Part shown: positions 13,178 through 44,656 of the stretch, piece after piece | How positions within the stretch are numbered: position 1 is the first letter of the stretch | Layout of the letters: every line of letters starts with the position of its first letter | Source: Pseudaquabacterium terrae | Lineage (GTDB): Bacteria > Pseudomonadota > Gammaproteobacteria > Burkholderiales > Burkholderiaceae_C | Direction: 5' to 3' | Length of the DNA: 64,000 nt | Assembly: GCF_013266755.1 (NCBI RefSeq) | Contig: NZ_JABRWJ010000009.1 | Coordinates: 1 to 64,000, forward strand | Notes under the pieces: model-generated | Database searches by the model: none | Seen by the model: the letters and a program-made list of their open reading frames with translations, nothing else | What the model was told of the DNA's origin: nothing | Made by a program: the position numbers and the translations under genes

Positions 13178-13181
<4 letters not shown>
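11931..13181 (+). CDS. DUF445 family membrane protein
   Basis: A 416-residue protein of the DUF445 (YjiN-like) family. It has an N-terminal membrane segment (IALGLLAGAAALYALASWL), the family hallmark EAAMVGAIADWFAVVALFRHP (about 45-65) and PIPHTAIIPSNKDRIGRNLA, a long helical middle part, and a final hydrophobic segment (NGTLVGGLVGLSIHAVTEL). The role is unknown. The GTG at 11931 is used; an ATG at 11955 is the alternative. The gene ends in a 4-bp convergent overlap with the cyclase-ATPase gene. Confidence 0.8.
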
Positions 13182-16456
<3,275 letters not shown>

Positions 16457-22884: not shown

Positions 22885-23307
22885 TCACGGCCTTTGCCGG
22901 AAACGCTCGATCGCCGCGCGCAGGTCCTCGGGAATCTCGACCGCGCGATGGCTGTCCAGGTCGGTCGTCACGATCACCTGCTGTGCCTGCACGCGCTGCG
23001 CACCGTCGGCGCCGCAGCAGTCCAGCGCCAGCGTGAACGAGCGCAGGCCCAGGCGCTCGACCTCGAGGCCCAGCCTCACCGCATCGCCCATGCGGCTGAT
23101 CGCCCGAAAGCCGGTCTGCAGGCTGACCGTCGGCAGGCCGATGCGGCGCTCACCGATCAGCGCGGCATACGGGATGCCGAGCGCATCGCTGACCCAGTCC
23201 TCGACCAGGCCGTTGAAGAGCACGAAGTAGCTCGGGAAAAAGACGATGCCGGCGGGGTCGCAGTGGCTGAAGCGGATGCGCTGCGCTCGCTCGAACCTAC
23301 CGCTCAT
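22885..23307 (-). CDS. Acyl-CoA thioesterase, 4-hydroxybenzoyl-CoA thioesterase type
   Basis: A 140-residue hotdog-fold thioesterase. The motif [19 protein letters not shown] contains the catalytic aspartate context of 4-hydroxybenzoyl-CoA thioesterases (D-x-A-G-x-V-F). It would release an aromatic or short acid from CoA. The ATG overlaps the stop of the preceding SDR gene (ATGA), so the two are translationally coupled. The SDR-thioesterase pair is typical of aromatic acyl-CoA degradation operons such as those for 2-aminobenzoyl-CoA. The substrate is inferred. Confidence 0.8.
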
Positions 23308-24098
23308 GCCATCACCTCGCCGCCCGAGACCGACACCGCCTGCCCGTTGATCGACGCTGCGGCCGGCGTGGCCAGCCAGGCCACCGCATCGGCCACTTCG
23401 TCGGGCTGCACCATGCGGCCCTGCGGGTTGTGGCGCACGAAGGCGGCGCGTGCGGCGTCGGCGCTGCGGCCGGTCTTGGCGACCACCTGGTCGAGGCTGT
23501 GCTGCAGCAATGCGGTCTCGGTGTAGCCCGGGCAGACGGCGTTGACGGTGATGCCCTGCGCCGCCACCTCGAGCGCCAGCGAGCGTGTCAGCCCGATCAC
23601 GCCGTGCTTGGCCGCCGTGTACGCGGCCACGTAGGCGTAGCCGCGCTGGCCCGCGGTGCTGGCAATGTTGATGATGCGGCCCCATCCTGCCGCCCGCATG
23701 TCCGGCAGCGCGGCGCGCATGCAGAAGAAGCTGCCGCTCAGATTGACCGTCAGCATGCGTTGCCACAGCTCGTCGCTGGTGCGATCGAAGGGCGCGCTGT
23801 CCGCCTGGCCGGCGTTGTTGACGAGGATCTGCAGCGGCCCCTGCGCTTCGCGGACTTCGGCGAAGGCGTGCGCCACGGCGGCCGGATCGCCGACATCGCA
23901 GGCGATCGTGCGGGCGACGGCGCCGGGCGGCAGCTCGGCGGCCAGCGCCTGCAGTGCGTCGCGGCCGCGGCCCAGCAGGGTCAAGGTCGCGCCGTCGGCG
24001 GCGAGGCGGCGGGCGATCGCGGCGCCGATGCCGCGCCCCGCGCCGGTGATCAGCGCATGGCGTCCGGCGAGCGGCAGCGAGGGGTTCGAATCAGGCAT
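23304..24098 (-). CDS. SDR-family dehydrogenase
   Basis: A 264-residue classical short-chain dehydrogenase. It has the NAD(P) motif [19 protein letters not shown], the catalytic Ser in [11 protein letters not shown] and YTAAK, and [11 protein letters not shown]. It resembles 3-hydroxyacyl-CoA and 3-hydroxybutyrate dehydrogenases. It is coupled to the downstream thioesterase. A perfect 28-bp palindrome directly abuts the start codon, leaving no room for a normal ribosome-binding site; expression is therefore likely controlled by a repressor binding right at the translation start. Confidence 0.85.
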
Positions 24099-24126
24099 GC
24101 ATTTACTTTAGATCTAAAGTAAATGC
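24099..24126. promoter_or_regulatory. Perfect 28-bp palindrome, MarR/TetR-type operator
   Basis: A perfect palindrome with core ACTTTAGATCTAAAGT, AT-rich in a GC-rich region. It touches the ATG of the SDR gene and contains the stop codon (24114-24116) of the protease gene upstream. A related site (13 of 16 core bases) lies upstream of the ABC-type binding protein at 31420. The length and symmetry fit a MarR- or TetR-family operator. No such regulator gene is in the window. Confidence 0.75.
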
Positions 24127-24569
24127 CCGTCAACAAGCAGGCCGGCGTTGAAGTACGCGTGCAGCCCGATCGCCGGCCCGATGCGGCCGTAGCGTTCCTT
24201 GACGGCGCCCAGCAGCAGCGAGGGCAGCAGCGTCGCGGCGGCCAAGGCGATCGGCCGCGTCGGCAGGTGCGCGGCGGCGAACAGCAGCGAGGCGAGCAAG
24301 TTCGCGATGCTGATGCCGAACCAGGGTCCGGCGCGCCAACGCCGCGCGGCGAGCCACGCTTGCAGCCCGCCGCGAAAGCACCACTCCTCGAGGCACGGAT
24401 AGAGCAGCAGCAGGCACGCCAACCGCCAGCCATCGTCGACGGCCGGCAGGCGGCCCTGCTGCGCCAGCAGCCACCAGCCCGCCGGCGCCAGCAGCACGCC
24501 GGCCACCACCAGGCGGTGGCGGCCGAGCGCCCTTGCCGCTGCGGTCAGCGCCGCCGTCGCGCGCGCCAC
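24114..24569 (-). CDS. CPBP-family intramembrane glutamic protease, CTERM-sorting type
   Basis: A 151-residue membrane protein of the CAAX-protease (CPBP) family. Its catalytic motifs are LEEWCFRGG (EExxxR), FAAAHLPTR and GLHAYFNAG. Four or five hydrophobic segments are visible. The GTG start at 24569 overlaps the end of the tannase gene by 25 bp. That tannase, and its paralogue at 29465, end in a Gly-Gly-Cys-Ser, hydrophobic, Arg-cluster tail. Small CPBP proteases paired with such tails are known as dedicated processing enzymes (the JDVT-CTERM/MrtJ type by my recollection). The likely job is to cleave the tail after membrane insertion. Confidence 0.75.
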   Translation of the reverse strand: MARATAALTAAARALGRHRLVVAGVLLAPAGWWLLAQQGRLPAVDDGWRLACLLLLYPCLEEWCFRGGLQAWLAARRWRAGPWFGISIANLLASLLFAAAHLPTRPIALAAATLLPSLLLGAVKERYGRIGPAIGLHAYFNAGLLVDGHLL

Positions 24570-26290
24570 AGCCCGAAGAACGCGCCCAGCAGCAGCAAGG
24601 GCAGCGACGCATCGCGGCCATCGGCCGACACCGAGCAGCCGCCCGCTTCGAGCTCCGCCGACGCGTCGCTTTCCTCGCAGCGCCAGTTCGCCGGGTTCTC
24701 GCTGTCGCCGCCCGTGTGCACGGTGCGCTTCGGGAACGCGCAGTACGAGCGGTTGTACTTCGTGACGCCGTTCTCGACCAGCTTCGCGGCCAGCCGGTCC
24801 GGCGCCTGCCCGCCCTCGACCCATTCGATCAGCGGCGTCATCGCGTCGATCTGGTGCGGCCCGTAGCCTCCCCAGCAGTGCGCGACGCCGGGCACGAGGA
24901 ACATGCGCCACGCGTCCTGCGTCGCCTTCGCGCCGAGCTTGTCGGCCACCGCGGCGTAGTGGTCGGTGCCCATCACCGGGTTCAGCGCGCCGTCGGCCAG
25001 GCCCCAGAAGGTCAGGATCTTGCCCTTGCGCGCGAAGTACGCGGCCAGGTCGGGCTTCGGGTTCAGGATCTCGTTGATCACCGCCATGCGGTCCGGGTCG
25101 CGGTCGAAGTTGAAGCTCTTCCACGCGTAGTCCGGATCCTGCAGCGGGAAGAAGGCCAGGTACTTCATGAACGATTCGCCCATGCCCGACAGCGCATTGG
25201 CGCCGCGCGGCACGAACAGCCACGGCACCGTCGCGGTCCAGGTCGTCGCGCGCGGGTCGTTCGCCTCGATGCCCCAGGGCTGCGGAAAGGTTTCCCGGCC
25301 TTTGATGCGCGGCCCGCGGTGGATGCGGTCGATCGACGCGATTTCGGCCGGCGTGAAGCACTCGTCGGTGACCGCGCCGGTGCAGCGCGGCAGGTCCTGC
25401 GCCGGGTCGAAATTGCAGGCCAGCGGCTCGCTGACCAGGCCGTCCTTGACGCCGTCCTTCGCATCGCACTTGGCGAGGATGTGCTTGAACAGCACGTTGT
25501 ACTTCGGCAGCGTCAGCGTCGGCGCGGCATCGAGCGCGAGCTGGTTCGACAAGCCCTTCATCATCACGTCGCCCCAGCGCAGCGTCGGCGCGGCGGCGAG
25601 GATGCCGTCGAAGTCCTGCGGATAGCGGTAGGCGCTCATCATGCCCTGGCGGCCGCCGGTCGAGCAGCCGTCCCAGTAGGCGCGGCTCGGCGCACGTGAA
25701 TAGAACTCGCCCGCCAGCTGCTTGGCCAGCACGATGGTCTCGTGCACCGCGCGGTAGGCGTGGTCGATCAGCTTGTCGGGCCGGCGGTGGGCGAAGGTGG
25801 CCAGCGGCTCCTTCGCCGCATCATGGCCGGTGTTCTGGCGCACCGTCGCGAAGCCCTTCGACAGGCCGAGCTCGCGCGTCGGCGCTTCCAGCGAACCATC
25901 GTGGCCCTCGCCGGCGAAGCCGCCGTTGCCGAACATCCAGACGCGGCCGTTCCACTTCGTCGGCAGGTTGATCTCGAAGCTGATCTCGGCCGGGATCACA
26001 CCCTGGATGCGGCAGTGCTCGGGCGCCGTGACGGTCGCCGGCACCAAGCGCGCCGCCAGGTCGATGCCGCCCGGCGTGCGCCGCGTCATCACCGAGCAGT
26101 CGACCGCGGCGACGAAAGGCGTCGCGGTGTAGTTGACGCTCGACTCGGCCGATCGCGCGAAGCTGAACGGGTTCGAGTTGACGGCCACGGCGGGCCCCGT
26201 GGCCGCCGCGAGCAGCGTTGCCGCGATGGCCGGCAGCGTTGTTCGGTGGCGGCGACGCACCGGTTGATCACATGGCGCTTCGAATGGCAT
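24545..26290 (-). CDS. Tannase/feruloyl esterase family protein with GGC-CTERM tail
   Basis: A 581-residue exported hydrolase with AAGGAG before its ATG and a signal peptide (about 1-36). It has the tannase CS-D-HC pattern: catalytic Ser210 in YWDGCSTGGRQG, the acid in GLADGALNPVMGTDHY, and His-Cys in GVAHCWGGYG. The family hydrolyses galloyl, feruloyl or similar aromatic esters and some polyester intermediates. The C-terminus reads GGCSVSADGRDASLPLLLL, then a hydrophobic stretch and RARRRR, a tripartite sorting signal. It shares a 73-bp upstream element with the paralogue at 29465 and diverges from the LysR gene. Confidence 0.85.
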   Translation of the reverse strand: MPFEAPCDQPVRRRHRTTLPAIAATLLAAATGPAVAVNSNPFSFARSAESSVNYTATPFVAAVDCSVMTRRTPGGIDLAARLVPATVTAPEHCRIQGVIPAEISFEINLPTKWNGRVWMFGNGGFAGEGHDGSLEAPTRELGLSKGFATVRQNTGHDAAKEPLATFAHRRPDKLIDHAYRAVHETIVLAKQLAGEFYSRAPSRAYWDGCSTGGRQGMMSAYRYPQDFDGILAAAPTLRWGDVMMKGLSNQLALDAAPTLTLPKYNVLFKHILAKCDAKDGVKDGLVSEPLACNFDPAQDLPRCTGAVTDECFTPAEIASIDRIHRGPRIKGRETFPQPWGIEANDPRATTWTATVPWLFVPRGANALSGMGESFMKYLAFFPLQDPDYAWKSFNFDRDPDRMAVINEILNPKPDLAAYFARKGKILTFWGLADGALNPVMGTDHYAAVADKLGAKATQDAWRMFLVPGVAHCWGGYGPHQIDAMTPLIEWVEGGQAPDRLAAKLVENGVTKYNRSYCAFPKRTVHTGGDSENPANWRCEESDASAELEAGGCSVSADGRDASLPLLLLGAFFGLWRARRRR

Positions 26291-26331
26291 GTTGTCTCCT
26301 TGCTGTTGTGGGTGAGTACGGCGCTGCAAAC

Positions 26332-26404
26332 CATTCTTCGAAGCGCTGCCGGCGCGCGCTATCCGCGGCTGGCGTGGCGGCCGCGCGGCTGTCCGCATCT
26401 GGCG
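26332..26404 (-). promoter_or_regulatory. Shared upstream element, tannase copy 1
   Basis: A 73-bp block 42 bp from the tannase ATG. It contains CATTCTTCGAAG, then GCTATCCGC (26358-26366) and GCTGTCCGC (26388-26396) exactly 30 bp apart, ending in ATCTGGCG. An equal-length block with the same parts lies before the second tannase (31274-31346). The spacing of three helical turns suggests paired regulator-binding sites. Confidence 0.7.
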
Positions 26405-26413
26405 ATCAAGCGT

Positions 26414-26428
26414 GCAACGCTGCGTTGC
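26414..26428. promoter_or_regulatory. GCAACG-N3-CGTTGC palindrome, copy 1
   Basis: A 15-bp inverted repeat (GCAACGCTGCGTTGC) in the tannase/LysR divergent region. The same 6+3+6 pattern recurs twice after the LysR gene (27428, 27498). It is a candidate site for the LysR or another dimeric regulator. Confidence 0.55.
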
Positions 26429-26500
26429 GCTGGTGAAACCGTCGCCTTCGGGCAGCCGCTCTTGACGGCCCCCACCCCGCGCCGGATGCTCGACGCCCAC

Positions 26501-27412
26501 ATGAACACGCTGATGGGCACCGTCGAGGAGCTGATCCTGCTGGCCGAGGTGGTCGAGGCGGGCGGCTTCTCCGCCGCGAGCGGGCGCACCGGCATTCCGA
26601 AGTCGCGCCTGAGCCGGCGCATCGCCAAGCTCGAGGAGCGCCTGGGCGTCGGGCTGATCCGGCGCGATTCGCGCCATTTCGAGGTCACCGAGCTCGGCCG
26701 CCAGCTCTACGAACGCGCCTGCACGATCCGCGAGTCGGCTGTCGAGGCGGTGGGGCTGGCGCAGGACAGCGTCGGCGAACCGACGGGCCTGCTGCGCGTG
26801 GCCTGCCCGGTCGCGCTGGCGACCTCGCTGGTCACCCGCATTGCCGCGTCTTTCGTGCGTCAGTACCCCCGCGTGCAGCTGGCGCTGACGACGACGCTCG
26901 GCGCGGCCGACACGCTGGCCGAGCGCTTCGACGTGATCATCCATCCGAGCGTCGGCGCGCTGCCCGACAGCGACATGGTGGCGCGCCGGCTCGGCGTCGC
27001 GCAGTACGCGCTGGTCGCCACGCCCGAGCTCGCCGACACGCTGGCGCTGCACGATCCCGAGCAGCTGGCCGGGGCCGAGACGATCGGCTGGGACTTCATG
27101 GGGCGGCGCGGGCGCTGGCACCTCGCCGGTCCCGCCGGCCGCACGGCCGACGTCAACGTCAGCGAGCGGCTGTACAGCGACAATCTGCTGGTCGTGCGCG
27201 CTGCCGTGCTCGAAGGGGCCGGCGTCGCGCCGATGTCGCGCTTCCTGTGCCAGTCGGACATCGACGCCGGCCGCTTGCAGGTCGTGCTGCCCGGCTGGGG
27301 TCCGCCGCCACTGACGCTGTACGCGATCTACGGCTCGCGCCGCGCCTTGTCAACGGCCGGCGGCCGCTTCATCAACGAGCTCGTGGCACAGATCGCGGCC
27401 ACCGGCGTCTGA
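26501..27412 (+). CDS. LysR-family transcriptional regulator
   Basis: A 303-residue regulator with an N-terminal winged helix (LAEVVEAGGFSAASGRTGIP, then SRLSRRIAKLEERLGV) and a LysR substrate-binding domain (about 90-295). ATG 26501 is used; ATG 26513 and 26486 are in-frame alternatives and none has a strong ribosome site. It is divergent from the first tannase gene and is surrounded by three GCAACG-N3-CGTTGC palindromes. By position it is a likely regulator of the tannase region, with the inducer presumably an aromatic acid. Confidence 0.85.
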   Translation: MNTLMGTVEELILLAEVVEAGGFSAASGRTGIPKSRLSRRIAKLEERLGVGLIRRDSRHFEVTELGRQLYERACTIRESAVEAVGLAQDSVGEPTGLLRVACPVALATSLVTRIAASFVRQYPRVQLALTTTLGAADTLAERFDVIIHPSVGALPDSDMVARRLGVAQYALVATPELADTLALHDPEQLAGAETIGWDFMGRRGRWHLAGPAGRTADVNVSERLYSDNLLVVRAAVLEGAGVAPMSRFLCQSDIDAGRLQVVLPGWGPPPLTLYAIYGSRRALSTAGGRFINELVAQIAATGV

Positions 27413-27427
27413 GCGGCGTTCATCCGC

Positions 27428-27442
27428 GCAACGTACCGTTGC
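27428..27442. promoter_or_regulatory. GCAACG-N3-CGTTGC palindrome, copy 2
   Basis: The repeat GCAACGTACCGTTGC begins 16 bases after the LysR stop codon and is 70 bp from the third copy, about seven helical turns, upstream of the histidine kinase gene. Confidence 0.55.
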
Positions 27443-27497
27443 GACAGCAGGACGTCGAGCACCTTCCCTCGGCAGCCGCGATCTGCGTTCCGAATCC

Positions 27498-27512
27498 GCA
27501 ACGGTGCGTTGC
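27498..27512. promoter_or_regulatory. GCAACG-N3-CGTTGC palindrome, copy 3
   Basis: The repeat GCAACGGTGCGTTGC lies 86 bp before the histidine kinase start, on the same DNA face as copy 2. The pair may form the control region of the kinase gene. Confidence 0.55.
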
Positions 27513-27598
27513 GCCGGCGTGGTTCGCACTTCGATCGAGTGCTGCCGATACTGGTCTCCACCGCCCGACCCTTCCAGCCCTCACAGCAGGTGATCACC

Positions 27599-28345
27599 AT
27601 GGCAGTAACTTGCACTTGCGAAATGTCCATCCCGGCGGAGATGCTGCAGCGCATCGCCGGCCTCGAGTCGTTCTGCGCGCAGGTGGCGCACGACCTGCGC
27701 GGCACGCTCGGCGGCATTGCCGAGCTGGCCGAGATCGCCCGCTCCGCGCTGTGCGATCAGGACGACGCGCGGCTCGCGCGCCGCGCGCTCCCGCTGATCG
27801 GCGCGCAGGCGCGCTGCTCGTTCGAGATGCTGTCGGCGCTGCTGCGGCTGGCGCAGGCAGGCGGCGGCGAGCTGCAGCCGCAGCCGATCGAGCTCGGCAC
27901 GCTGGTCGCGCAGGTGATCGAGGGGCTGGTGCTGGCCCACGGCGCACAGCCGCTGCCGACGGTGACGGTGGAGGGCACGCCGCCGCTGCACGGCGACCCG
28001 GCGTTGCTGCATGCGGTGATGCAGAACCTGATCGGCAATGCCTTCAAGTTCTGCGCCGGGCGCAGCGACGCCAACGTGCACATCGAAGGCCGGCGCATCG
28101 CCGAGGGCGTGCTGATCAGCGTGCGCGACAACGGCGTCGGCTTCGACGCGGCGCGCGCCGCCGAGCTGTTCGAGCCCTTCAAGCGCCTGCATGGCCACGC
28201 CTTCGCCGGCACCGGCATGGGCTTGTGCATCGTGCGCCAGGCGGTGCAACGCCACGGCGGGCGCATCTGGGCCGAGTCGGCGCCCGGCGAGGGCGCGTGC
28301 TTCTCGTTCGTGCTGCCGGCGCCGCCGGAGTGCACGCCGACCTGA
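27599..28345 (+). CDS. Short sensor histidine kinase
   Basis: A 248-residue kinase with no membrane segment. The phospho-acceptor H-box is QVAHDLRGTLGGIAELAEIA (His at about residue 31). The N-box is MQNLIGNAFKF, G1 is DNGVGFD and G2 is GTGMGLCIV. The N-terminus has only ~25 residues before the H-box, with two Cys (TCTCEM) that might bind metal or sense redox. No response regulator is adjacent; an AraC regulator follows. The input signal is unknown. Confidence 0.8.
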   Translation: MAVTCTCEMSIPAEMLQRIAGLESFCAQVAHDLRGTLGGIAELAEIARSALCDQDDARLARRALPLIGAQARCSFEMLSALLRLAQAGGGELQPQPIELGTLVAQVIEGLVLAHGAQPLPTVTVEGTPPLHGDPALLHAVMQNLIGNAFKFCAGRSDANVHIEGRRIAEGVLISVRDNGVGFDAARAAELFEPFKRLHGHAFAGTGMGLCIVRQAVQRHGGRIWAESAPGEGACFSFVLPAPPECTPT

Positions 28346-28475
28346 TCGGCCCACGGCCGCAGGCCCGTTGTCATGGCCGCGACAGCGGCGGCCGCGGTCT
28401 TCACTCGATACTCGATTGCTTGAGACTTCAAGCAATTCGGCGTCCCGAGTCTCGCCCCGGACAGGTGTTGTGATC

Positions 28476-29477
28476 ATGTCGCGGAACGGATTCGAACCCT
28501 CGGCGCTGCGGGCCCACCGGCTCTTCGAGTCGCACGACCTGGAGCTGACGCGCGAGCGCATCTCCGGCGTGATGCAGCCGCACCGGCTGCTGCCGCGCGG
28601 CGCGCCGGCGGGCCGCCGCGCGCACATGGATTTCGTGCGCATCGACGGCATCGGCATCGGCGCGATCGCCTTCGGCGAGGCGATGCGCGTGGTCGTCGAC
28701 CGGCTCGAGGGCTACCACCTGCTGATGTTCTGCCTGCGCGGCGGCGCGCAGTCGGCCAGCGGCGGCACGGCGCTCGACGTCGGGCCGAACCGCGGGCTGC
28801 TGATCGCGCCGGGCCAGCACTTCGAGGCCGATTTCAGCGCCGATTGCGAGCAGTTCGTGCTGCGCCTGGACAGCGACGCGGTGCAGGCGCACAGCGGGCT
28901 ACCCGGGCTGCAATGGCAGCGCCGCGTCGATCTCGGTGCGCCCGCGCTGCGCCCGCTGCTCGAGACACTGCAGGCGCTGACGACGACGACGGCACTGCTG
29001 GATGCGGCGCGGCGCCAGGCGTTGATCGCCGCCGACGTCGAGCGCCTGCTGATCCACCTGCTGCTGGCCGGGCAGCCGGCGCTGGCGCTGCCCGACCCGG
29101 GCACCGGCACCGAGCGCCGCGGCATCGCGCCCGGCTGCGTGCGCCGCGCCGAGGAGTTCATCGAGGTGCAGCTCGCCTTGCCGCTGCGTTTGGGTGATAT
29201 CGCGCAGGCCGCCGGCGTGCCGGCGCGCACGCTGCACGACGCCTTCGCGCGCTTTCGGGGCATGAGCCCCATGCAGGCACTGCAGCGGCGGCGGCTGGAG
29301 CACGCCCGCGCGCTGCTGCTGCAGCCGGGGCGTGATGTGCGCATCGCCGAGGTCGCGCTCGAATGCGGCTTCGCGCACTTCGGGCGCTTCGCGCTGGCCT
29401 ATCGCCAGCGCTTCCACGAATCGCCGTCGCAGACGCTCACGCGCCGGCGCGGCGAAGCGCTGCGTCAGCCGCGCTGA
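28476..29477 (+). CDS. AraC-family transcriptional regulator
   Basis: A 333-residue regulator with an N-terminal AraC-binding-like domain (about 15-190) and a C-terminal double helix-turn-helix (about 225-325: LRLGDIAQAAGVPARTLHDA, then RIAEVALECGFAHFGRFALA). The ATG at 28476 follows an in-frame GTG two codons before. The 3' end overlaps the convergent second tannase by 13 bp. AraC proteins often bind direct repeats, which fits the paired GCTRTCCGC boxes before both tannase genes. Confidence 0.85.
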   Translation: MSRNGFEPSALRAHRLFESHDLELTRERISGVMQPHRLLPRGAPAGRRAHMDFVRIDGIGIGAIAFGEAMRVVVDRLEGYHLLMFCLRGGAQSASGGTALDVGPNRGLLIAPGQHFEADFSADCEQFVLRLDSDAVQAHSGLPGLQWQRRVDLGAPALRPLLETLQALTTTTALLDAARRQALIAADVERLLIHLLLAGQPALALPDPGTGTERRGIAPGCVRRAEEFIEVQLALPLRLGDIAQAAGVPARTLHDAFARFRGMSPMQALQRRRLEHARALLLQPGRDVRIAEVALECGFAHFGRFALAYRQRFHESPSQTLTRRRGEALRQPR

Positions 29478-31234
29478 ACGGTGGCCCCAAGGCGGCGCCG
29501 CCGCGCGAACCACGCGCCCATCAGCAGCAAGGGCAGGCTGGCATCGCTGCCGTTGCCGGTCGAGCAGCCACCGGCGGCGGCGGTGTCTGGCGCGGCCGCC
29601 GCCGGCGGCTCCTCGCAGCGCCAGCTCTCGGCCTTCTCGGGGTCGCCGCCGGCGTAGGCGGTGCGCTTCGGATACGCACAGTAGGCGCGGTCATAGGTGG
29701 TTGCGCCGTTCGCATCGAGCAGCCGCGCGCGCAGCCGCTCGGGCGCCTTGCCGCCTTCCACCCATTCGATCAGCGGCGTCATGCCGTCGATCTGGTTCGG
29801 CCCGTAGCCGCCGCCGCAGTGCGCCAGGCCCGGCACCAGGAACATGCGGTAGAACGATTGCGTCTCGGCCGCACCGAGCCTGGCCGAGACCGCATCGTGA
29901 TAGTCGGTGCCCATCACGACGTTCAGCGCCGCGTCGGCCCAGCCCCAGTAGGTCAGGATCTTGCCCTTGCGGTCGCGGAAGGCCGCCAGGTCCGGCTGCG
30001 GGTTCAGCAGGCTGTTGATGTGCGCCATGCGGTCGGGGTCGGTGTCGAAGTCGAACTTCGTCCAGTCGTAGGCCGGGTCCTGGTTCGGGAAGGCCCAGTA
30101 CTTCATGTACGACTGGCCGAAAACCGTCAGCCCGTTCGCCGAGCCGGGCAGGAACAGCCACGGCACCGAGGTGGTCGGATGCTCGACGCCCCAGTGCTGC
30201 GGGAAATACTCGCGGCCCTTGATGCGCGGGCCGGCACGCAGCCGCGCCAGCGCGTTGATCTCTGCCTCGGAATAACAATCGTCGCCGGTGGCGCCGGTGC
30301 AGCGCGGCAGGTCCTGCGCCGGGTCGAAATCGCACGCCGGCGGGTGGCTGATCAAGCCGTCGGTGACGCCGTCCTTCGCATCGCATTTGGCGAGCACGCG
30401 CTTGAAGACGTTGGCGAGCTTGGCCTGCGTCAGCGTCGGCGCGCTGTCGAGCGCGCGCTGGTTCGACAGGCCCTTCATCATCACGTCGCTCCAGCGCAGC
30501 GTCGGTGCGCCGGCGAGGATGCCGTCGAAGTCCTGCGGGTAGCGGTAGGCGCTCATCATGCCCTGGCGACCGCCGGTGGAGCAGCCGTCCCAGTAGGCAT
30601 AACTGGCAGAGCGCGCGTAGTAGGTGGCGATCACCTGCTTGGCCAGCACCACGGTCTCGTGCACCGCGCGGTAGGCGTGGTCGATCAGCTTGTCGGGGCG
30701 GTAGTAGGCGAAGGTGGCCAGCGGCTCCTTCGCCGACAGGTGGCCGGTGTCGGTGCGCGCGGTGGCGAAGCCCTTGGACAGGCCGGTCTCGCGCGATTCG
30801 GCTTCCTTCGGCGCATCGTTGTCCTCGCCGGCGAATCCGCCGTTGCCGTACATCCACAGCCGCCCGTTCCACTGCGTCGGCAGGTTCAGCTCGAAACCGA
30901 CCTCCGCCGCAAGGGTGCCGCGGATGCGGCAGTGCTCGGGCGCCTTCGCGGTGGCGGCGATCAGCTGCGCCGACAGCGGAATGCCGTTGGCAAACGTCGT
31001 GTTCATCGCTGCGCAATCGAGCGCGGCACGCAGCGGCGTCGCGGTGTAGGGCACCGACGATTGCGCCGCGAGGCTGAAGCCGCCGGGATTGCCGCGCGAG
31101 GCCAGCGCCTCGCCGGCGCCGAACAGCAGCGGCAACAGCAGCGGCACAAGGCCGAGCGCAGCAGCCAGGCCGCGCCGCCAGCGCGGCAGCGTGGCGTGCG
31201 AGGGGGCGGTGGGGGATACGAAAGACATCGGCAT
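29465..31234 (-). CDS. Tannase/feruloyl esterase family protein, paralogue 2, GGC-CTERM tail
   Basis: A 589-residue exported hydrolase closely similar to the one at 24545. ATG 31234 is preferred over 31276 because AGGAG lies 8 bases upstream and a signal peptide follows (hydrophobic core LAAALGLVPLLLPLLFGAG). Catalytic parts are YWDGCSTGGRQG (Ser about 219), ADAALNVVMGTDYHD and GLAHCGGGYG. The tail reads AGGCSTGNGSDASLPLLLMG, then RRRR, but here eight more residues (LGATVQRG) follow the Arg cluster. It probably shares substrate class, regulation and processing with paralogue 1. Confidence 0.85.
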   Translation of the reverse strand: MPMSFVSPTAPSHATLPRWRRGLAAALGLVPLLLPLLFGAGEALASRGNPGGFSLAAQSSVPYTATPLRAALDCAAMNTTFANGIPLSAQLIAATAKAPEHCRIRGTLAAEVGFELNLPTQWNGRLWMYGNGGFAGEDNDAPKEAESRETGLSKGFATARTDTGHLSAKEPLATFAYYRPDKLIDHAYRAVHETVVLAKQVIATYYARSASYAYWDGCSTGGRQGMMSAYRYPQDFDGILAGAPTLRWSDVMMKGLSNQRALDSAPTLTQAKLANVFKRVLAKCDAKDGVTDGLISHPPACDFDPAQDLPRCTGATGDDCYSEAEINALARLRAGPRIKGREYFPQHWGVEHPTTSVPWLFLPGSANGLTVFGQSYMKYWAFPNQDPAYDWTKFDFDTDPDRMAHINSLLNPQPDLAAFRDRKGKILTYWGWADAALNVVMGTDYHDAVSARLGAAETQSFYRMFLVPGLAHCGGGYGPNQIDGMTPLIEWVEGGKAPERLRARLLDANGATTYDRAYCAYPKRTAYAGGDPEKAESWRCEEPPAAAAPDTAAAGGCSTGNGSDASLPLLLMGAWFARRRRLGATVQRG

Positions 31235-31273
31235 CGAAACAGCTCCTGCGGGTCGGCTTGAGGGGAACCGATT

Positions 31274-31346
31274 CATTCTTCGAAGCCGCTGTCGGCGCGG
31301 CTATCCGCATGCCGCGGGCGCGGCCGGCGGCTATCCGCTTCTGGCG
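31274..31346 (-). promoter_or_regulatory. Shared upstream element, tannase copy 2
   Basis: A 73-bp block 40 bp from the second tannase ATG. It has CATTCTTCGAAG and two GCTATCCGC boxes (31300-31308, 31330-31338) 30 bp apart, ending TTCTGGCG. It matches the block at 26332-26404 in order, spacing and distance to the gene. Confidence 0.7.
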
Positions 31347-33785: not shown

Positions 33786-36146
33786 TCAGCCGCGCAGCGG
33801 CGCCAGCAGCTGCCGCACGACCGTCGGCAGCTCGTCGTAGCTGTTGGCCTTGGGCACCAGGCGCAGCACGCCGGCGCGGCGCGCGGCGATGCGCAGCTCG
33901 TCAGAGATGTAGCCGGAATACAGCACGACCGGGAGGCCGGGCCGCAGCTGGTGGATCTCGGTGGCCACGCGCAGGCCGTCGGCGACCGGCATGTTGTAGT
34001 CGGTGACGACGATGTCGTAGCCCTGCGGCTGTTCGCGCACCGCGGCGATCGCCTGCTCGCCGCTGCCGAAGGCGCTGACTTCGTAGCCGCCGCGCTCGAG
34101 CAGGCGCTGCAGCACCAGCAGCATGGTCGGGTCGTCGTCGACGCACAGCACGCGCTCGCCGTGGCCGGCCGCGGCGCCGTTGCCCGCGGCGTGCAGGTCG
34201 GGCTCCAGCGCCGGCAGGTGCAGCGTGAAGCAGCTGCCCTCGCCCGGCGTGCTGTCGATGGCGATCGCGCCGCCGTGTGCCATCACGATGCCGTGCACCA
34301 CCGACAGCCCGAGCCCCGTGCCCTTGCCCACTGGCTTGGTGGTGTAGAACGGCTCGAAGATGCGCGAGCGCGTCGCGGCCTCCATGCCGACGCCGTTGTC
34401 GCGCACGACCAGCCGCACGTGCAGCCCCGGCAGCAGGCCGGGCAGCGTGTGCACCGCGGCGGCATCGAGCCGCACCTCGTCGAGCGCGAGCTCGATGCGG
34501 CCGGCGCGGCCCTCGACCGCGTGCAGCGCATTCGTACACAGATTCATCAGCACCTGGTGCAGCTGCGTCGGGTTGGCCGACACCCGGCAAGGCGCGTCGC
34601 TGCAGCGCACGACGATCGCGCTGCCGGCCGGCAGCAGCGTGCGCATCGTCTGGCCGACCTCCTCGACCACCGATCTCAGCGGCAGCTTGACGTAGGGCTC
34701 GGGTCCCTGGCGGCTGAAGGTCAGGATCTGCGCCACCAGGTCCTTGGCGCGCATGCCGGACTTCAGCAGCTCATCGAGCGCCAGCCGCGCCGGATGGTCG
34801 AGCGCGACATCCTGGCGCGCGAGCACGACGTTGCTGAGCATCGCGCCGAGGATGTTGTTGAAGTCGTGCGCGATGCCGCGCGCCAGCGTGCCCACCGCCT
34901 CGAGCTTGTGCGCTTCGCGCAGCCGCTCCTCGAGCTGCGCGCGGGCCGCCTCGGCGGCGGCGCGGTCGCTGATGTCGCGCACGTTGATCGTGTTGCGCAG
35001 CTGGCCCTGCGCATCGACGTGCACGGCGCAGAAGATCTCCGCCTCGAAAGGCCGGCCGTCGCCGCGGCGCAGGCGCAGCTGGCCCTTGAAGAGCCCCTTG
35101 CGGCGCACTTCTTCGAGCGCCGCTGCGCCGCGCTCGTCGCCCGGATCGATCAGTGCGATGGCGCCCAGGCGCTGCAGCGCCTCGCGGCTGCGGCCGAGCA
35201 TGCCGCAGGCGGCCGGGTTGGCATCGAGGATGCGCCCGCGCATCGCGGTGTAGAGGATGCCGTCGAGGCTGTTGTCGAACAGCTGTTGCAGCAGCTGCTC
35301 GCGTTCGCGCAGGTGTTCCTCGGCCTGCTTGCGCTCGGTGATGCCGGCCAGCCGCAGCACGCAGCCGTCGTCGAGCGGACCGATCTGGGCCAGGAAGTCG
35401 CGCCGGCTGCCGCCGCTGCCCAGCGTGATCTCGCAGCTGCTGCCGCTGGACTGCGACATCGCCGCGCGGCAGCGCTCGTCGAGCGCCAGCTGCGGCCAGG
35501 CCGGAAAGGCTTCGCCGACCGGCAGGCCGGTCGGGTTGTCGACCGCCGCTTCGAGCAGCTCGCCGAACTGCCGGTTGACGACGACGACCAGCCAGTCGAC
35601 CAGGCGGTGCGCGTCGTCGCGCACCGCACGCAAGGCCAGGATGCCGTCGCTGGTGGCGTTGAGCACCGCCTCGAGCATCTGCTGACGCGATTCGAGCGGG
35701 GTGTTGTAGGTCAGCAGGATGACCTCGCCAGTCGCTTCACGCAGCGGCATGATCAGCCGCTCCCAGGTGAAGACGCTGGGCGCGCGGTCGGAAAAGTGCA
35801 CCGTGTACAGCGGCTGGTGGCTGGCCATCACCTCGCGGTAGCGCTGAAGGAAGAAGTCGCCGAGCTCGCCGCCGAACTCCGACACCAGCAGCCCGGTCAT
35901 GTCGAACTGCGCGTGGCGCTGGATGTCGATGCCGTAGTGCAGGTAGCGGAAGTCCGCGCCCTCGGCGCGCAGCAGCATCATCTTGTCGGCCAGCGGGCCG
36001 AGCTGCGCGAGCTCGAATTCAGCCGCCGCCGGCATCGCGCCGGCGCGGTCATGCAAGCTTTGCCAGCGCCGGTACAACGCGACGATCTCGGCGTTGTCGA
36101 CCACCGATTCGATGCCTGCAGACACTTCCTTGTGCCAGATTGCCAT
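33786..36146 (-). CDS. Hybrid PAS sensor histidine kinase with receiver domain
   Basis: A 786-residue soluble signalling protein. An N-terminal PAS-like domain (about 20-150; [18 protein letters not shown]) and two more PAS modules (about 155-275 and 285-395) are followed by a HisKA domain (H427 in [17 protein letters not shown]), an ATPase domain ([21 protein letters not shown]) and a C-terminal receiver ([11 protein letters not shown]; phosphoacceptor Asp in VVTDYNMPV). There is no membrane segment, so the signal is probably intracellular, such as redox or a ligand. No partner output regulator is adjacent. A phosphorelay to a separate Hpt or regulator is expected. Confidence 0.9.
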
Positions 36147-36259
36147 CGCGCGCTTCGAAGCTCGAGACCGCTGACCTCCACGGCCGAGCCAGTGTACGCC
36201 GCGATGCCGGCGCGACGCAGCGCCCTAAAGCGGTGGCGGCAGGCCGGTTCGCGGCCCGA

Positions 36260-37786
36260 TCACATCACCGCGCCGAGCTGCCAGGGCACGAATTCGTTCT
36301 GGCCGTAGCCGTGCTGCTCACTCTTCGAGCGGCGGCCGGATGCGGTGGCCAGCATCAGCCGGAAGATGCGCTCGCCGGCGGCGTCGACCGTCTCCAGGCC
36401 TTCGACGATGCCGCCGCAGTCGAGGTCGATGTCTTCCTGCTGCTTCAGCCACAGCGCGGTGTTGGTCGACAGCTTCAGCGACGGCGCCGGCGCGCAGCCG
36501 TAGGCCGAGCCGCGGCCGGTGGTGAAGCAGATCAGGTTGGCGCCGCCGGCGACCTGGCCGGTGGCCGACACCGGGTCGTAGCCCGGCGTGTCCATGAACA
36601 GCAGGCCGCGCGGGGTCGCCGGTTCGGCGAACTGCAGCACGTCGACCAGCGCGGTCGTGCCGCTCTTGGCGATGGCGCCGAGCGACTTTTCGAGGATCGT
36701 CGTCAGCCCGCCCGCCTTGTTGCCCGCCGACGGGTTGTTGTCCATCTTCATGCCGTGGCGGGCGGTGTAGGCCTCCCACCAGGCGATGCGCGCGAGCAGC
36801 TTGTCAGCAACCAGACGCGACACCGCACGCTGCGTCAGCAGGTGCTCCCCGCCATAGACCTCCGGCGTTTCGCTGAGGATCGCCGCGCCGCCATGGCGCA
36901 CCAGCCGGTCGACCGCCGCACCCAACGCCGGGTTCGCGCTGATGCCGGAATAACCGTCGGAGCCACCGCATTGCAGCCCGACCGTGAGATGCCGCGCCGG
37001 CACGGGCTGGCGCTGCACGCGGTTCGCATCGGCCAGCAGGCCGCCCACCACCTCGATGCCGCGAGCCACGGTCTTCGCGGTGCCGCCGGTCGACTGGATG
37101 TCGAAGACGACCAGGCGCGCCCCTTCGGTGAGCGCTTCCTGCGCGATCAGCCCCTGGATCTGGTTCGTCTCGCAGCCGAGGCCGATCACCAGCACCGCCG
37201 CGAAGTTCGGATGCCGCGCATAGCCGCCGAGGGTGCGCCGCAGCACGCGCAGCTCTTCACCCTCGCTGTCGGTCGCGCAGCCCATGCCGTGCGTCAGCGC
37301 AACCACGCCGTCGACGTTCGGGAAAGGATCCAGCGCCTCGGGATGGATGTCGCGCCGGAAGTGGTCGGCAATCGCTCGCGCGACGGTGGCCGAGCAATTC
37401 ACCGAGGTCAGGATGCCGATGTAGTTGCGCGTGGCAATGCGGCCGTCGGCGCGCACGATGCCGTCGAACGTGGCCGGCTCGGCGACGTGCTCGGTCGGCA
37501 GCGCGCCGCTCCCCGGCTCACCGAACCGCGCGACATCGCTAAACGCCAAATTGTGCGTGTGCACATGCTGCCCTGCAGCAATGGCCTGCGTTGCCGTGCC
37601 GATCACCTGGCCATAGCGGACCACCGCCTCGCCGGGCTGGATCGCGCGCGTGGCAATCTTGTGCCCCGGCGGCACCAGGCCCTGTACGGCGAAGCCTTCG
37701 GCCTCGACCGCCGTGCCGCCGAGCAATTGGCGCCGCGCAATGACGACGTTGTCCGCGGGATGAATGCGGATCACCGCGCCGTTCAC
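36260..37786 (-). CDS. UxaA/GarD family sugar-acid dehydratase
   Basis: A 508-residue dehydratase of the altronate/galactarate family. It has an N-terminal SAF domain (1-95: VRYGQVIGTATQAIAAGQHV) and the catalytic GarD-like part (TRNYIGILTSVNCSATVARA, LTHGMGCATDSEGEELRVLR, GLQCGGSDGYSGISANPA). The fused single-chain form is typical of UxaA. It removes water from a hexonate to give a 2-keto-3-deoxy acid. The start is GTG 37786. It is the last gene of the minus-strand sugar-acid arm. The real substrate (altronate, galactarate or another) cannot be decided from sequence alone. Confidence 0.85.
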   Translation of the reverse strand: MNGAVIRIHPADNVVIARRQLLGGTAVEAEGFAVQGLVPPGHKIATRAIQPGEAVVRYGQVIGTATQAIAAGQHVHTHNLAFSDVARFGEPGSGALPTEHVAEPATFDGIVRADGRIATRNYIGILTSVNCSATVARAIADHFRRDIHPEALDPFPNVDGVVALTHGMGCATDSEGEELRVLRRTLGGYARHPNFAAVLVIGLGCETNQIQGLIAQEALTEGARLVVFDIQSTGGTAKTVARGIEVVGGLLADANRVQRQPVPARHLTVGLQCGGSDGYSGISANPALGAAVDRLVRHGGAAILSETPEVYGGEHLLTQRAVSRLVADKLLARIAWWEAYTARHGMKMDNNPSAGNKAGGLTTILEKSLGAIAKSGTTALVDVLQFAEPATPRGLLFMDTPGYDPVSATGQVAGGANLICFTTGRGSAYGCAPAPSLKLSTNTALWLKQQEDIDLDCGGIVEGLETVDAAGERIFRLMLATASGRRSKSEQHGYGQNEFVPWQLGAVM

Positions 37787-37840
37787 GACAGCACCCCACC
37801 GGCGCCTGCAGGCGGCGCCGGGCTCAGGACGAGCAGCGCC

Positions 37841-38359
37841 TTACAGCTTGGCCACGGCCTTGCGCTTGGCCGCGGTAGCGGCCTTCTGGTACTCCTCTTC
37901 GGCCTCCTTGCGCAGCTCGATGGCCGTGTGCAGCGCCTGCTCGTAGCGCTCCTTGCTGTAGGTGTTCTTGCTGGCGATGTAGACGCTGCGGCGCAGCGGC
38001 TTGTCGCCGAAGCGCGGCAGGTTGACCGAGAAGCTGCACTCCTGCACCGAGCTGCCGCGGCGCTGGCGCAGGATCGGTCCGCTGATGCCCACCGGCAGAT
38101 CGTTCTGCTTGTGCGCACTGACCTTGCGCTGCAGCCCGGTCGGCGCGGGCAGCTTGCGCACCCGCGAACGCAGTTCGACGACGGCCAGGGCCAGCGCAGA
38201 GCGCGCACCCTTGTTGTCGTGCGATTTGTCCGAGAAAAAGCGCGTTGGCGTCCCGTAGCGCAACTGCCAGCCGTGTGTGCTGTGCGAGTCGATGCGCTGG
38301 ACGTGTTCGGGTACGCGACAACGCGCCCCGTACGGCAATGTGATGGTCCTGAACTGCAT
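37841..38359 (-). CDS. Putative AP2-like DNA-binding protein
   Basis: A 172-residue basic protein. It appears to hold two AP2/ERF-like units: one around GWQLRYGTPTRFFSDKSHDN with a following helix, and one around LPRFGDKPLRRSVYIASKNT with a long helix (EQALHTAIELRKEAEEEY). The pattern of three strands then a helix, with aromatic and basic residues, fits bacterial AP2 proteins linked to homing nucleases or phages. It ends in a Lys/Ala-rich tail. No nuclease domain is seen. It is lodged between metabolic genes, so it may be an acquired regulator. Family assignment is tentative. Confidence 0.4.
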   Translation of the reverse strand: MQFRTITLPYGARCRVPEHVQRIDSHSTHGWQLRYGTPTRFFSDKSHDNKGARSALALAVVELRSRVRKLPAPTGLQRKVSAHKQNDLPVGISGPILRQRRGSSVQECSFSVNLPRFGDKPLRRSVYIASKNTYSKERYEQALHTAIELRKEAEEEYQKAATAAKRKAVAKL

Positions 38360-38446
38360 GGCCTGGTTCCCCCAACGGAACACCACACCCTGAGGCCGCC
38401 GATCCCTATCGCCGGCGGCGCGTAGTGCCTGAGCATTGCGCAGCGC

Positions 38447-39313
38447 CTAACCATCGATCAACTCGGGGTTCCACGCATGCACGGTCTGTTCTTGCTCCCC
38501 CAGACCTTCAATGCCCAGGCGCATTCTATCCCTAGGCCTCAAATAGACGGGAGAGGGTTTCTGCCCCATCCCGACACCTGGGGGGGTGCCCGTGCTGATC
38601 AGATCCCCTGGATAGAGGGTCATGAAGCGGCTGATGTAGCTCACCAGCTGGGCGACGCCGAACACCATCGTGCGCGTGCTGCCGTTCTGGTAGCGCTTGC
38701 CGTTGACCTCCAGCCACATGCCGAGTTGTTGCGGATCAGCCACTTCGTCGGCCGTTACCAGCCACGGGCCGATCGGACCGAAGGTGTCGCAGCCCTTGCC
38801 CTTGTCCCAGGTGCCGCCGCGTTCGATCTGGTATTCGCGCTCCGAAACATCGTTGACGACACAGTAGCCGGCCACATGTTGCAGTGCATCGTCGACCGAG
38901 ACGTAGCGCGCCCGCGCGCCGATCACGACGCCGAGCTCGACCTCCCAGTCGGTCTTGACCGAGCCCTGCGGCAGCACCACCGCATCGTTGGCACCGATCA
39001 CCGTGCTGGTGTGCTTGGTGAACAGCACCGGCTCCGACGGCACCGCCAGGCCGGATTCGGCGGCATGGTCTGCATAGTTCAGGCCGACGCAGACGAACTT
39101 GCCCATGCCGGCCCACGGCGGCGCGACGCGGCCGGGCTGCTCGATGATCGGCAGGCTCGACGGCTGCAGCGCGCGCAGCGGCGCCAGCCCCTCGGGCGTC
39201 AGCATCGAGGCGTGCAGGTCGGGGATGACGCCCGACAGGTCACGCACCTGGCCCTCGACGTCGAGCAGGGCCGGCTTCTCGCGGCCCTTGGGGCCGAGGC
39301 GCATCAACTTCAT
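38447..39313 (-). CDS. FAH-family hydrolase, 2,4-diketo-3-deoxy-aldonate type
   Basis: A 288-residue fumarylacetoacetate hydrolase family enzyme. It shows the metal site and catalytic signatures: VGLNYADHAAES, FTKHTSTVIGANDAVVLP, DWEVELGVVIG, and GDLISTGTPPGVGMG. In the non-phosphorylative L-fucose/L-rhamnose/L-lyxonate routes this enzyme cleaves 2,4-diketo-3-deoxy acids to pyruvate plus lactate or glycolate. The adjoining upstream SDR matches the dehydrogenase of that same route, supporting the assignment. AAGGAG precedes the ATG. The alternative is a general acylpyruvate hydrolase. Confidence 0.85.
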   Translation of the reverse strand: MKLMRLGPKGREKPALLDVEGQVRDLSGVIPDLHASMLTPEGLAPLRALQPSSLPIIEQPGRVAPPWAGMGKFVCVGLNYADHAAESGLAVPSEPVLFTKHTSTVIGANDAVVLPQGSVKTDWEVELGVVIGARARYVSVDDALQHVAGYCVVNDVSEREYQIERGGTWDKGKGCDTFGPIGPWLVTADEVADPQQLGMWLEVNGKRYQNGSTRTMVFGVAQLVSYISRFMTLYPGDLISTGTPPGVGMGQKPSPVYLRPRDRMRLGIEGLGEQEQTVHAWNPELIDG

Positions 39314-39344
39314 TCGGAACGCTCCTTGCTTGGTACTTGGGGTT

Positions 39345-40112: not shown

Positions 40113-40114
40113 GT

Positions 40115-41155: not shown

Positions 41156-41168
41156 GTTCCTCGCCCTC

Positions 41169-42074: not shown

Positions 42075-42079
42075 AGCGG

Positions 42080-42862: not shown

Positions 42863-42874
42863 GCGTCGGGGGTC

Positions 42875-44611: not shown

Positions 44612-44656
44612 GCGATTGCTGGCTTTCCCGGAGAGGCAGTGTTGGTGCTCAGGCAT

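Follow-up and report, generated by a model that had tools for sequence, protein, structure and literature searches.

A tannase-family ester hydrolase as a probable client of the MrtJ/JDVT-CTERM sorting system in Pseudaquabacterium terrae

Introduction

The locus described here raises the question of why two tannase-like proteins end in the same kind of short C-terminal tail, and whether the small intramembrane protease encoded beside one of them acts on it. The DNA is from Pseudaquabacterium terrae (assembly GCF_013266755.1, contig NZ_JABRWJ010000009.1). The window, that is, the whole stretch analysed, covers positions 1-64,000 of the forward strand (64,000 nucleotides). Its relevant features are the following.

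22885..23307, minus strand: 4HBT-type thioesterase, downstream of the SDR gene (Pfam 4HBT_2, 45.9 bits, cut-off 25.5)
23304..24098, minus strand: SDR dehydrogenase, same strand as mrtJ and downstream of it across a 15-nt gap
24114..24569, minus strand: mrtJ, CPBP (glutamic-type) intramembrane protease, 151 residues from the inferred start (NF033192, PF02517, catalytic residues)
24545..26290, minus strand: tannase 1, 581 residues counted from ATG (PF07519)
24548..24643, minus strand: tail 1, GGCSVSADGRDASLPLLLLGAFFGLWRARRRR (NF033191 JDVT-CTERM and a 33-tail profile)
28353..29477, plus strand: AraC-family regulator, AndR-type (NF041686, 493.2 bits, cut-off 350)
29465..31276, minus strand: tannase 2, 603 residues (PF07519)
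29468..29572, minus strand: tail 2, GGCSTGNGSDASLPLLLMGAWFARRRRLGATVQRG (NF033191 below cut-off; 33-tail profile)

Results and Discussion

The protease and the first tannase

Both tailed proteins belong to the tannase family (PF07519, gathering cut-off 29.8 bits), with scores of 321.8 bits for tannase 1 and 363.7 bits for tannase 2, and the two are 65% identical. The C-terminus of tannase 1 is AGGCSVSADGRDASLPLLLLGAFFGLWRARRRR and that of tannase 2 is AGGCSTGNGSDASLPLLLMGAWFARRRRLGATVQRG. Reading of these ends bears out the tails proposed in the initial annotation: each has Gly-Cys, then Asp, a hydrophobic stretch and a C-terminal Arg cluster, and the membrane stretch comprises 15 residues in tail 1 and 13 in tail 2. 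Tannase 1 contains the nucleophile motif GCSTGG and, judged by eye, an N-terminal hydrophobic stretch resembling a signal peptide. For tannase 2 the inner ATG at 31234 is as likely a start as 31276. Both enzymes probably split aromatic plant esters.

The open reading frame of mrtJ overlaps the 3' end of the tannase 1 frame by 25 nt. Its start is inferred to be the GTG at 24569, giving the 151-residue CPBP protease described earlier, although later GTG codons are possible too. The protein scores 106 bits against the MrtJ model NF033192, for which the curated cut-off is 75 (the aligned part being residues 63-158 of P0001), and 62.7 bits against PF02517. The CPBP residues of the EExxxR, H and HxxxN motifs, also noted before, are all present, and E61, E62, R66, H101, H137 and N141 are invariant across 19 aligned MrtJ proteins including that of the window. 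The MrtJ profile had no match among solved structures at E <= 0.1. A single-protein search of genome contigs with MrtJ gave no match, though relatives turned up by other searches.

Tail 1 scores 32.5 bits against the JDVT-CTERM model NF033191 (curated cut-off 27) and 42.8 bits against a profile for which 33 JDVT tails were taken from 17 genomes other than this one, leaving out the window's own tails. In tail 1, 15 residues separate the conserved Asp from the first Arg. With curated models and an independently built tail profile in agreement, the match of protease and tails exceeds chance. The suggested pairing of a tripartite Cys tail with a small CPBP protease is upheld by the protease and by tail 1. 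Because both pass curated cut-offs, the locus can be assigned at the level of sequence to the known MrtJ/JDVT-CTERM sorting system itself and not to a mere likeness of it, as an unusually clear new example. By analogy, MrtJ is predicted to trim the JDVT tag of the neighboring tannase. The best explanation, which we hold with good confidence, is a JDVT-CTERM/MrtJ pair with a tannase-family ester hydrolase as client, the duplicated tannase being a probable weaker client in trans.

The second tannase

Tail 2 scores 16.0 bits against NF033191, under the cut-off of 27 (12.2 bits in a six-frame search). The profile search of tails and protease proposed in the initial annotation is thus passed by the protease and tail 1 and failed by tail 2. 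Against the 33-tail profile, tail 2 reaches 24.8 bits, and the other tannases of the genus that were tested score at most 4.0. In tail 2, 13 residues separate the conserved Asp from the first Arg, while this spacing is 14-17 in 81 of the 84 other tails measured (it was measurable in 84 of the 87 surveyed JDVT tails). The standing of tail 2 as a client of MrtJ is doubtful: it is below the cut-off, its membrane stretch is short, and mrtJ is not adjacent.

A serious alternative is that tannase 1 is the only real client. The duplicate tannase 2, having no mrtJ of its own and a decaying tail, would then stay unprocessed in the inner membrane or be freed by another protease. The low score speaks for this, and so do the membrane stretch, with two residues fewer than in tail 1, and the position of the gene. 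The AndR-type regulator and tannase 2 are convergent and their 3' ends overlap by 13 nt; the eight extra residues after the Arg cluster of tail 2 (LGATVQRG), correctly noted before, extend into this overlap. In Ramlibacter and Polaromonas, relatives of the regulator converge on mrtJ; in the window the convergent gene is tannase 2, and no mrtJ intervenes. However, tail 2 shares 21 of 27 aligned residues with tail 1, against 3 of 9 aligned positions in the linker, although these numbers are small. It also retains the GC, D and RRRR positions. Extensions past the Arg cluster are also common, the distance from the first Arg to the C-terminal end being 12 residues in tail 2 and 5 to 37 in the 84 other tails. 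We regard this alternative as somewhat improbable. The trees disagree on whether the window's two tannases are sisters: one recovers them as such (support 90/91), and one of C-terminal halves that includes Variovorax, with Polaromonas represented by its long ORF only, does not.

The two-substrate system claimed earlier is plausible, but tail 2 is below the cut-off and shortened. It is less special than was claimed, since more than one client per genome is common: at least two JDVT proteins above the cut-off occur in 16 of 53 other MrtJ genomes.

Occurrence in other genomes

A tannase gene followed directly by mrtJ is found in Ramlibacter sp. WS9, where it is intact, and in Polaromonas sp. P2-4. 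The proteases score 102.6 and 104.8 bits against the MrtJ model and the tannase tails 28.6 and 30.0 bits against the JDVT model, all above cut-off. The reading frame of the Polaromonas tannase is broken near the N-terminus, so this copy may be a pseudogene or reflect a sequencing error. In all four tailed tannases the GGC, D-A, L-P, G and RRRR elements of the tail are identical, while the preceding linker is variable. Both pairs are neighbored by genes for an AndR-type regulator, an SDR and a CoA-ligase and by transporter genes, and the SDR relatives (66-68% identity to that of the window) are encoded no more than about 9 kb away. The relative in Variovorax sp. E3 stops after the tannase domain and has no tail; a motif search found no CPBP gene among its neighbors, and that genome has no JDVT tail above the cut-off.

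The tail is an extra element that has been added to the tannase domain. Among 38 distinct closed tannase ORFs from 21 genomes of the genus, its own included, only the window's two have Cys-hydrophobic-Arg ends; together with the 33-tail profile this rules out a chance end. When the 87 JDVT proteins from the genome survey were compared with a tannase profile, none matched, so tannases are a client type absent from that set; those of Ramlibacter and Polaromonas came from a separate search.

A scan of the own genome for other tailed proteins, also proposed before, found none. With 150 of 162 first-look candidates scored, 16 further weak JDVT matches were read to the ORF ends, and none is a C-terminal Cys-hydrophobic-Arg tail. 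Three (C56:121054, C45:667074 and C4:53296) have PEP-CTERM-like ends by eye and the rest are internal or non-tail. The initial annotation had named such an outcome as one that would refute its reading, but it leaves the pairing unrefuted, given that tannase and mrtJ also occur side by side in two further genera.

It might also be supposed that the tail only anchors the tannase in the membrane at its C-terminus and that the adjacent CPBP protein has an unrelated role. Two genomes that are exceptions to the co-occurrence of MrtJ and tail are in line with this. In G020, a genome of the genus with 95% completeness, a JDVT tail scores a convincing 41.9 bits, yet no protein passes the MrtJ cut-off (the best CPBP match, of 40.6 bits, is encoded elsewhere) and the 9 kb around the tail contain no CPBP motif. 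In G034, a genome of the order with 100% completeness, an MrtJ scores 123.7 bits, and a JDVT match at E <= 0.05 is lacking. However, across 399 genomes of the family, with MrtJ called at E <= 1e-18, a JDVT tail is present in 36 of 38 genomes with MrtJ and in 11 of 361 without it (Fisher p 5e-39, which overstates independence because the genomes are related). In six of these 11 the tail gene has a sub-threshold MrtJ-like match no more than about 2 kb away; in the other five no MrtJ-like gene was found near the tail. The window protease also exceeds the MrtJ equivalog cut-off, tannase and mrtJ are adjacent in three genera with both tail and mrtJ missing at the Variovorax locus, and the Gly-Cys before the helix is invariant in one set of 34 aligned JDVT proteins. 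A plain anchor is very unlikely.

The other sorting systems of the genome were considered as well. Tannase 1 scores 17.8 bits against MYXO-CTERM (TIGR03901, cut-off 20) and 14.2 bits against PFE-CTERM (cut-off 24), and TIGR03901 is not listed for tannase 2, which rules out MYXO-CTERM membership. No GlyGly-CTERM or PEP-CTERM model of NCBIfam is listed for either tannase at E <= 10, a listing from which the HMMER filters drop most matches above about 0.1, and membership in these two systems was rejected as well. The other two CPBP proteins of the genome score 57.1 and 40.8 bits against the MrtJ model, both below 75, and are ruled out as MrtJ; one of them, a CAAX protease, passes the pepcterm_CAAX cut-off with 206.2 bits. 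That a PEP-CTERM or MYXO-CTERM system with another protease serves the tails, for which the PEP-CTERM-like ends, these two proteins and the weak scores of tail 1 might speak, is the least credible reading, given that the models fall below cut-off or are unlisted and neither protein reaches the MrtJ cut-off.

Proposed mechanism

In the preferred reading, a MrtJ/JDVT-CTERM pair with a tannase client, the enzyme would be exported by Sec through its N-terminal signal and would remain in the inner membrane, anchored by the C-terminal helix, its Arg cluster on the cytoplasmic side. The Cys just before the helix may be lipidated, as proposed for MYXO-CTERM, and MrtJ may cut just past this Cys, as suggested by MrtX, releasing the helix. 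The T2SS could then move the lipid-anchored tannase to the cell surface. There it would split aromatic esters, and the acids may feed a cluster of the CoA-ligase, SDR and ABC-transporter type like that beside the relatives. What the sequences themselves show is the family membership of the protease and of tail 1, the addition of the tail, the adjacency in three genera and the co-occurrence of MrtJ with JDVT tails. For the T2SS, the search covered GspE, and the genome has a gene for it (689 bits, cut-off 630).

A wider reading is quite possible, though short of probable: MrtJ would be a many-client sorting enzyme displaying two tannase-family esterases on the cell exterior. There they would carry out the extracellular step in the uptake of aromatic esters, in one pathway with the AndR-type regulator and the SDR, CoA-ligase and transporter genes that neighbor the Ramlibacter and Polaromonas pairs. 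The esterases would be a C-terminally lipid-anchored counterpart of the MHETase-like enzymes.

To our knowledge, the JDVT-CTERM/MrtJ system is known from computation only. It now gains a client whose enzyme activity is easy to assay and whose gene lies beside that of its protease, together with a tail-less relative for comparison. Esterase activity can thus serve as a direct test of MrtJ cleavage, of lipidation and of surface display.

Comparison with known systems

MHETase is anchored through an N-terminal lipid. By sequence, the solved structures that come closest to the catalytic domain are those of MHETase and the tannase-family feruloyl esterases (6qz2 best, with E 1.7e-66). The match spans profile positions 105-566 of 616, so the tail is not included in it. 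Our literature search found no work joining tannase with the cell surface and CTERM.

The rhombosortase/GlyGly-CTERM system of Vibrio cholerae VesB differs in its rhomboid-family protease, and the window tannases have no listed GlyGly-CTERM model. We know of no invariant Cys in the GlyGly-CTERM tag. The likeness, as far as the available source text describes it, lies in a Gly-rich C-terminal tag, a hydrophobic region and positive charges, and in T2SS clients retained at the surface.

The MrtX/MYXO-CTERM system of Myxococcus xanthus TraA is alike in its tail of Cys, membrane helix and Arg cluster and in its related CPBP protease. It serves as the template for the lipidation, cleavage and T2SS export steps proposed above, and according to PMC11980579 the laboratory strain has 35 MYXO-CTERM proteins. 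However, tannase 1 is below the MYXO-CTERM cut-off, and the window protease scores 22.4 against the MrtX model, where 180 is required.

The closest system is MrtJ/JDVT-CTERM (NF033192/NF033191). It differs in that MrtJ is described, in the same text (PMC11980579, citing in silico work), as having a single JDVT-CTERM protein, whereas the window has two tannase paralogues, with tail 2 below the cut-off. It is alike in that the window protease and tail 1 both pass its cut-offs and the protease gene directly follows the target gene.

Protease and Tails of the Tannase Locus

The two tannases of the window lie on the same strand, with tannase 2 located 3.2 kb from the start of tannase 1, in a genome of 8.04 Mb and 56 contigs.

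Genes of the tannase locus
23304-24098, minus strand, SDR dehydrogenase, 15 nt after the protease ORF; a 4HBT-type thioesterase (minus strand) is next after it
24114-24569, minus strand, CPBP protease ORF (MrtJ) of 151 residues with GTG start, 3' of tannase 1 and sharing 25 nt with its 3' end
24545-26290, minus strand, tannase 1 (PF07519)
Between the tannases, LysR-type regulator
Between the tannases, histidine-kinase-like ORF (called by eye)
Between the tannases, AraC-family gene above the AndR cut-off, converging on tannase 2 with an overlap of 13 nt
29465-31276, minus strand, tannase 2 (PF07519), adjoined by the gene for a substrate-binding protein of the ABC transporter kind

The initial annotation had proposed a dedicated C-terminal sorting system of two esterases with GGCS tails and a CPBP protease, and its reading of both tails was confirmed on reading the ORF ends. 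The tannases score 321.8 bits (tannase 1) and 363.7 bits (tannase 2) with the Pfam Tannase model. The protease scores 106 bits with the NCBIfam model of MrtJ (NF033192, cut-off 75), 62.7 bits with the Pfam Rce1-like model, and 22-51 bits, far under their cut-offs, with the other NCBIfam myxosortase models. Tail 1 reaches 32.5 bits with JDVT-CTERM (NF033191, cut-off 27), the sorting tag paired with MrtJ, while tail 2 stays under the cut-off at 16.0 bits. The models thus place the protease and tail 1 but not tail 2, and it is well supported that the pair is a new case of MrtJ/JDVT-CTERM and not a new system.

Co-occurrence of MrtJ and JDVT Tails

Searches for MrtJ gave hits in 3 of the 21 genus genomes (E <= 1e-15), in 17 of 399 order genomes (E <= 1e-16) and in 38 of 399 family genomes (E <= 1e-18); these represent 56 loci in 54 different genomes. 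A JDVT tail (E <= 5e-4) is present in 47 of the 399 family genomes, 36 of them among the 38 MrtJ carriers and 11 among the remaining 361 (Fisher p 5e-39, in a test that ignores relatedness). The two MrtJ carriers of this sample that lack a tail have completeness values of 76% and 70%. Among the 11 genomes outside the MrtJ carriers, six (G451, G525, G598, G672, G734 and G753) show an MrtJ-like match below threshold no more than ~2 kb from the tail gene; the other five have none near it, and one of these, G732, has a 68.7-bit match elsewhere in the genome. Two exceptions lie outside the family sample. The order genome G034 (100% complete) carries MrtJ with no JDVT match at E <= 0.05, and the genus genome G020 has a convincing JDVT tail (L274, G020:C40:5850-5948, minus strand), with no MrtJ above cut-off genome-wide and no CPBP motif in 9 kb around the tail.

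At the 56 MrtJ loci, the tail gene is directly upstream in 21, elsewhere within 7 kb in 18, only elsewhere in the genome in 14, and absent in three (E <= 0.05 for order and genus, <= 5e-4 for family; one non-tail removed and tail 2 added by hand). Of the other 53 MrtJ genomes, 16 encode at least two JDVT proteins by the curated cut-off, and two of these 16 (G284 and G670) carry two MrtJ genes each.

Other CTERM and CPBP genes were found in the window's genome. A CAAX protease lies above the pepcterm_CAAX cut-off at 206.2 bits (G000:C53, L064:5848-6519) and PEP-CTERM-like protein ends were seen by eye; therefore the genome seems to have two CTERM sorting systems side by side. A third CPBP protein (L063:5980-6747) scores 53.9 bits with MrtJ, below cut-off, and its top match is an ABC-permease/CPBP model, far under the cut-off of that model. 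Elsewhere in the window, a protein of 1092 residues (13178-16456, minus strand) matches a TOMM system kinase/cyclase fusion model at 455.8 bits, under the cut-off of 705.75. Sugar-acid catabolism genes were recognized by model match at 33786-44656 (minus strand): a dihydroxy-acid dehydratase family protein above cut-off and, below cut-off, galactarate-dehydratase-like, didehydro-deoxyrhamnonate hydrolase-like and VirA-like sensor kinase matches.

Tannase as a Probable Client

The tail is an addition to the tannase domain. The 21 genomes of the genus, the window's own included, hold 46 PF07519 matches, of which 41 were read to the ORF end (five weak or fragmentary ones were left out), giving 38 distinct closed ORFs once a duplicate row and two ORFs running off a contig end were removed. 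Among these, a Cys-hydrophobic-Arg tail is confined to the two tannases of the window. It is absent from the three other tannases of the same genome, and those of G004:C174 and G014:C103 extend beyond the domain, yet without such a tail.

A profile made from 38 other tannase rows of the genus finds none of the 87 surveyed JDVT proteins (the window's excluded, that of G020 not included) at E <= 1. Four of these proteins are under 400 residues, and 32 are truncated by the edge of a locus or contig, most of them retaining about 500 residues. Among the 25 commonest Pfam families in each of two sets were Ig-like ASH/Cep192 domains (25/53) and the alpha/beta hydrolase Abhydrolase_10 (5/53) in one, and Calx-beta (8/34) and subtilase (6/34) in the other. 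JDVT hydrolases therefore exist, and the tannase is a new client type in this survey. In two different genera the JDVT tail is internal to a longer in-frame ORF (L152:5584-8364, minus strand; L210:1-2349, plus strand), in which the tail is followed by another hydrophobic stretch and then by a thioredoxin-like domain. This arrangement, either a fusion or an in-frame neighbouring gene, resembles a two-part precursor.

A scan of genome contigs with both window tannases as queries gave three loci. The tannases of Ramlibacter sp. WS9 (28.6 bits) and Polaromonas sp. P2-4 (30.0 bits) carry JDVT tails over the cut-off, the only such match in each genome, and are followed 3' by MrtJ above cut-off after 0 nt (102.6 bits) and 2 nt (104.8 bits), respectively. 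In both loci an AndR-type regulator above cut-off converges on mrtJ, and there is an SDR relative (66-68% identity to that of the window) and an ABC transporter whose substrate-binding protein shares ~34% identity with its counterpart next to tannase 2. The Ramlibacter tannase is a single ORF of 575 residues. The frame of the Polaromonas tannase (L279:8845-10663) is broken near the N-terminus, as is that of a benzoate-CoA-ligase-like gene in the same locus (295.8 bits on the larger piece, below the cut-off of 375.25), a relative of which is present in Ramlibacter; the cause may therefore be either a sequencing error or a pseudogene. The Variovorax sp. E3 relative (L280:8935-10556) is broken mid-gene, by either of the same two causes, and ends just past the tannase domain. 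It has no tail and, by motif search at the locus, no CPBP gene beside it, and its genome gives no JDVT match above cut-off. In the four tailed tannases GGC, DA, LP and RRRR are identical; the preceding linker is not.

The Second Tannase Tail

For a window-free profile, 33 JDVT tails were taken from 17 other genomes with MrtJ, after one match internal to its ORF and one non-tail had been removed from an initial 35. This profile gives 42.8 bits for tannase 1, 24.8 bits for tannase 2, and at most 4.0 bits among 39 other genus tannase rows. Against tail 2 as a client stand its sub-cut-off JDVT-CTERM score, its membrane stretch of 13 residues (14-17 in 81 of 84 measured tails; 12, 13 and 19 in the remaining three, one each), and the absence of mrtJ beside tannase 2, at a place where relatives carry it beside the AndR-type gene. 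In its favour, the tail is kept more than the linker (21 of 27 aligned residues equal between tails 1 and 2, only 3 of 9 in the linker), and extra residues past the Arg cluster, as in tail 2, are common among other JDVT tails. A two-client arrangement is probable. The favoured reading is a tannase duplication, one copy losing its mrtJ and perhaps being served in trans; trees did not settle the branching of the two.

Putative Mechanism and Comparison with Known Systems

Among solved structures, MHETase and feruloyl esterases are closest to the catalytic domain, and the neighbouring genes point to aromatic esters as putative substrates. The tannase client type of MrtJ and the probable two-client arrangement merit a bench test.

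For MrtX/TraA, PMC11980579 describes Sec export, after which the helix sits in the inner membrane; Cys lipidation, perhaps by an Lgt-like enzyme and a hypothesis there too; cleavage by the myxosortase beyond the Cys; and transport to the surface by the T2SS. By analogy, the window tannase would be exported by Sec and held by its helix in the inner membrane, the tail Cys might be lipidated, perhaps by an Lgt-like enzyme, MrtJ would cut beyond it, and the T2SS would carry the protein to the cell surface. GspE is above cut-off in the window's genome. PMC11980579 speaks of MrtJ together with one JDVT-CTERM protein, a description that several clients for one protease may extend.
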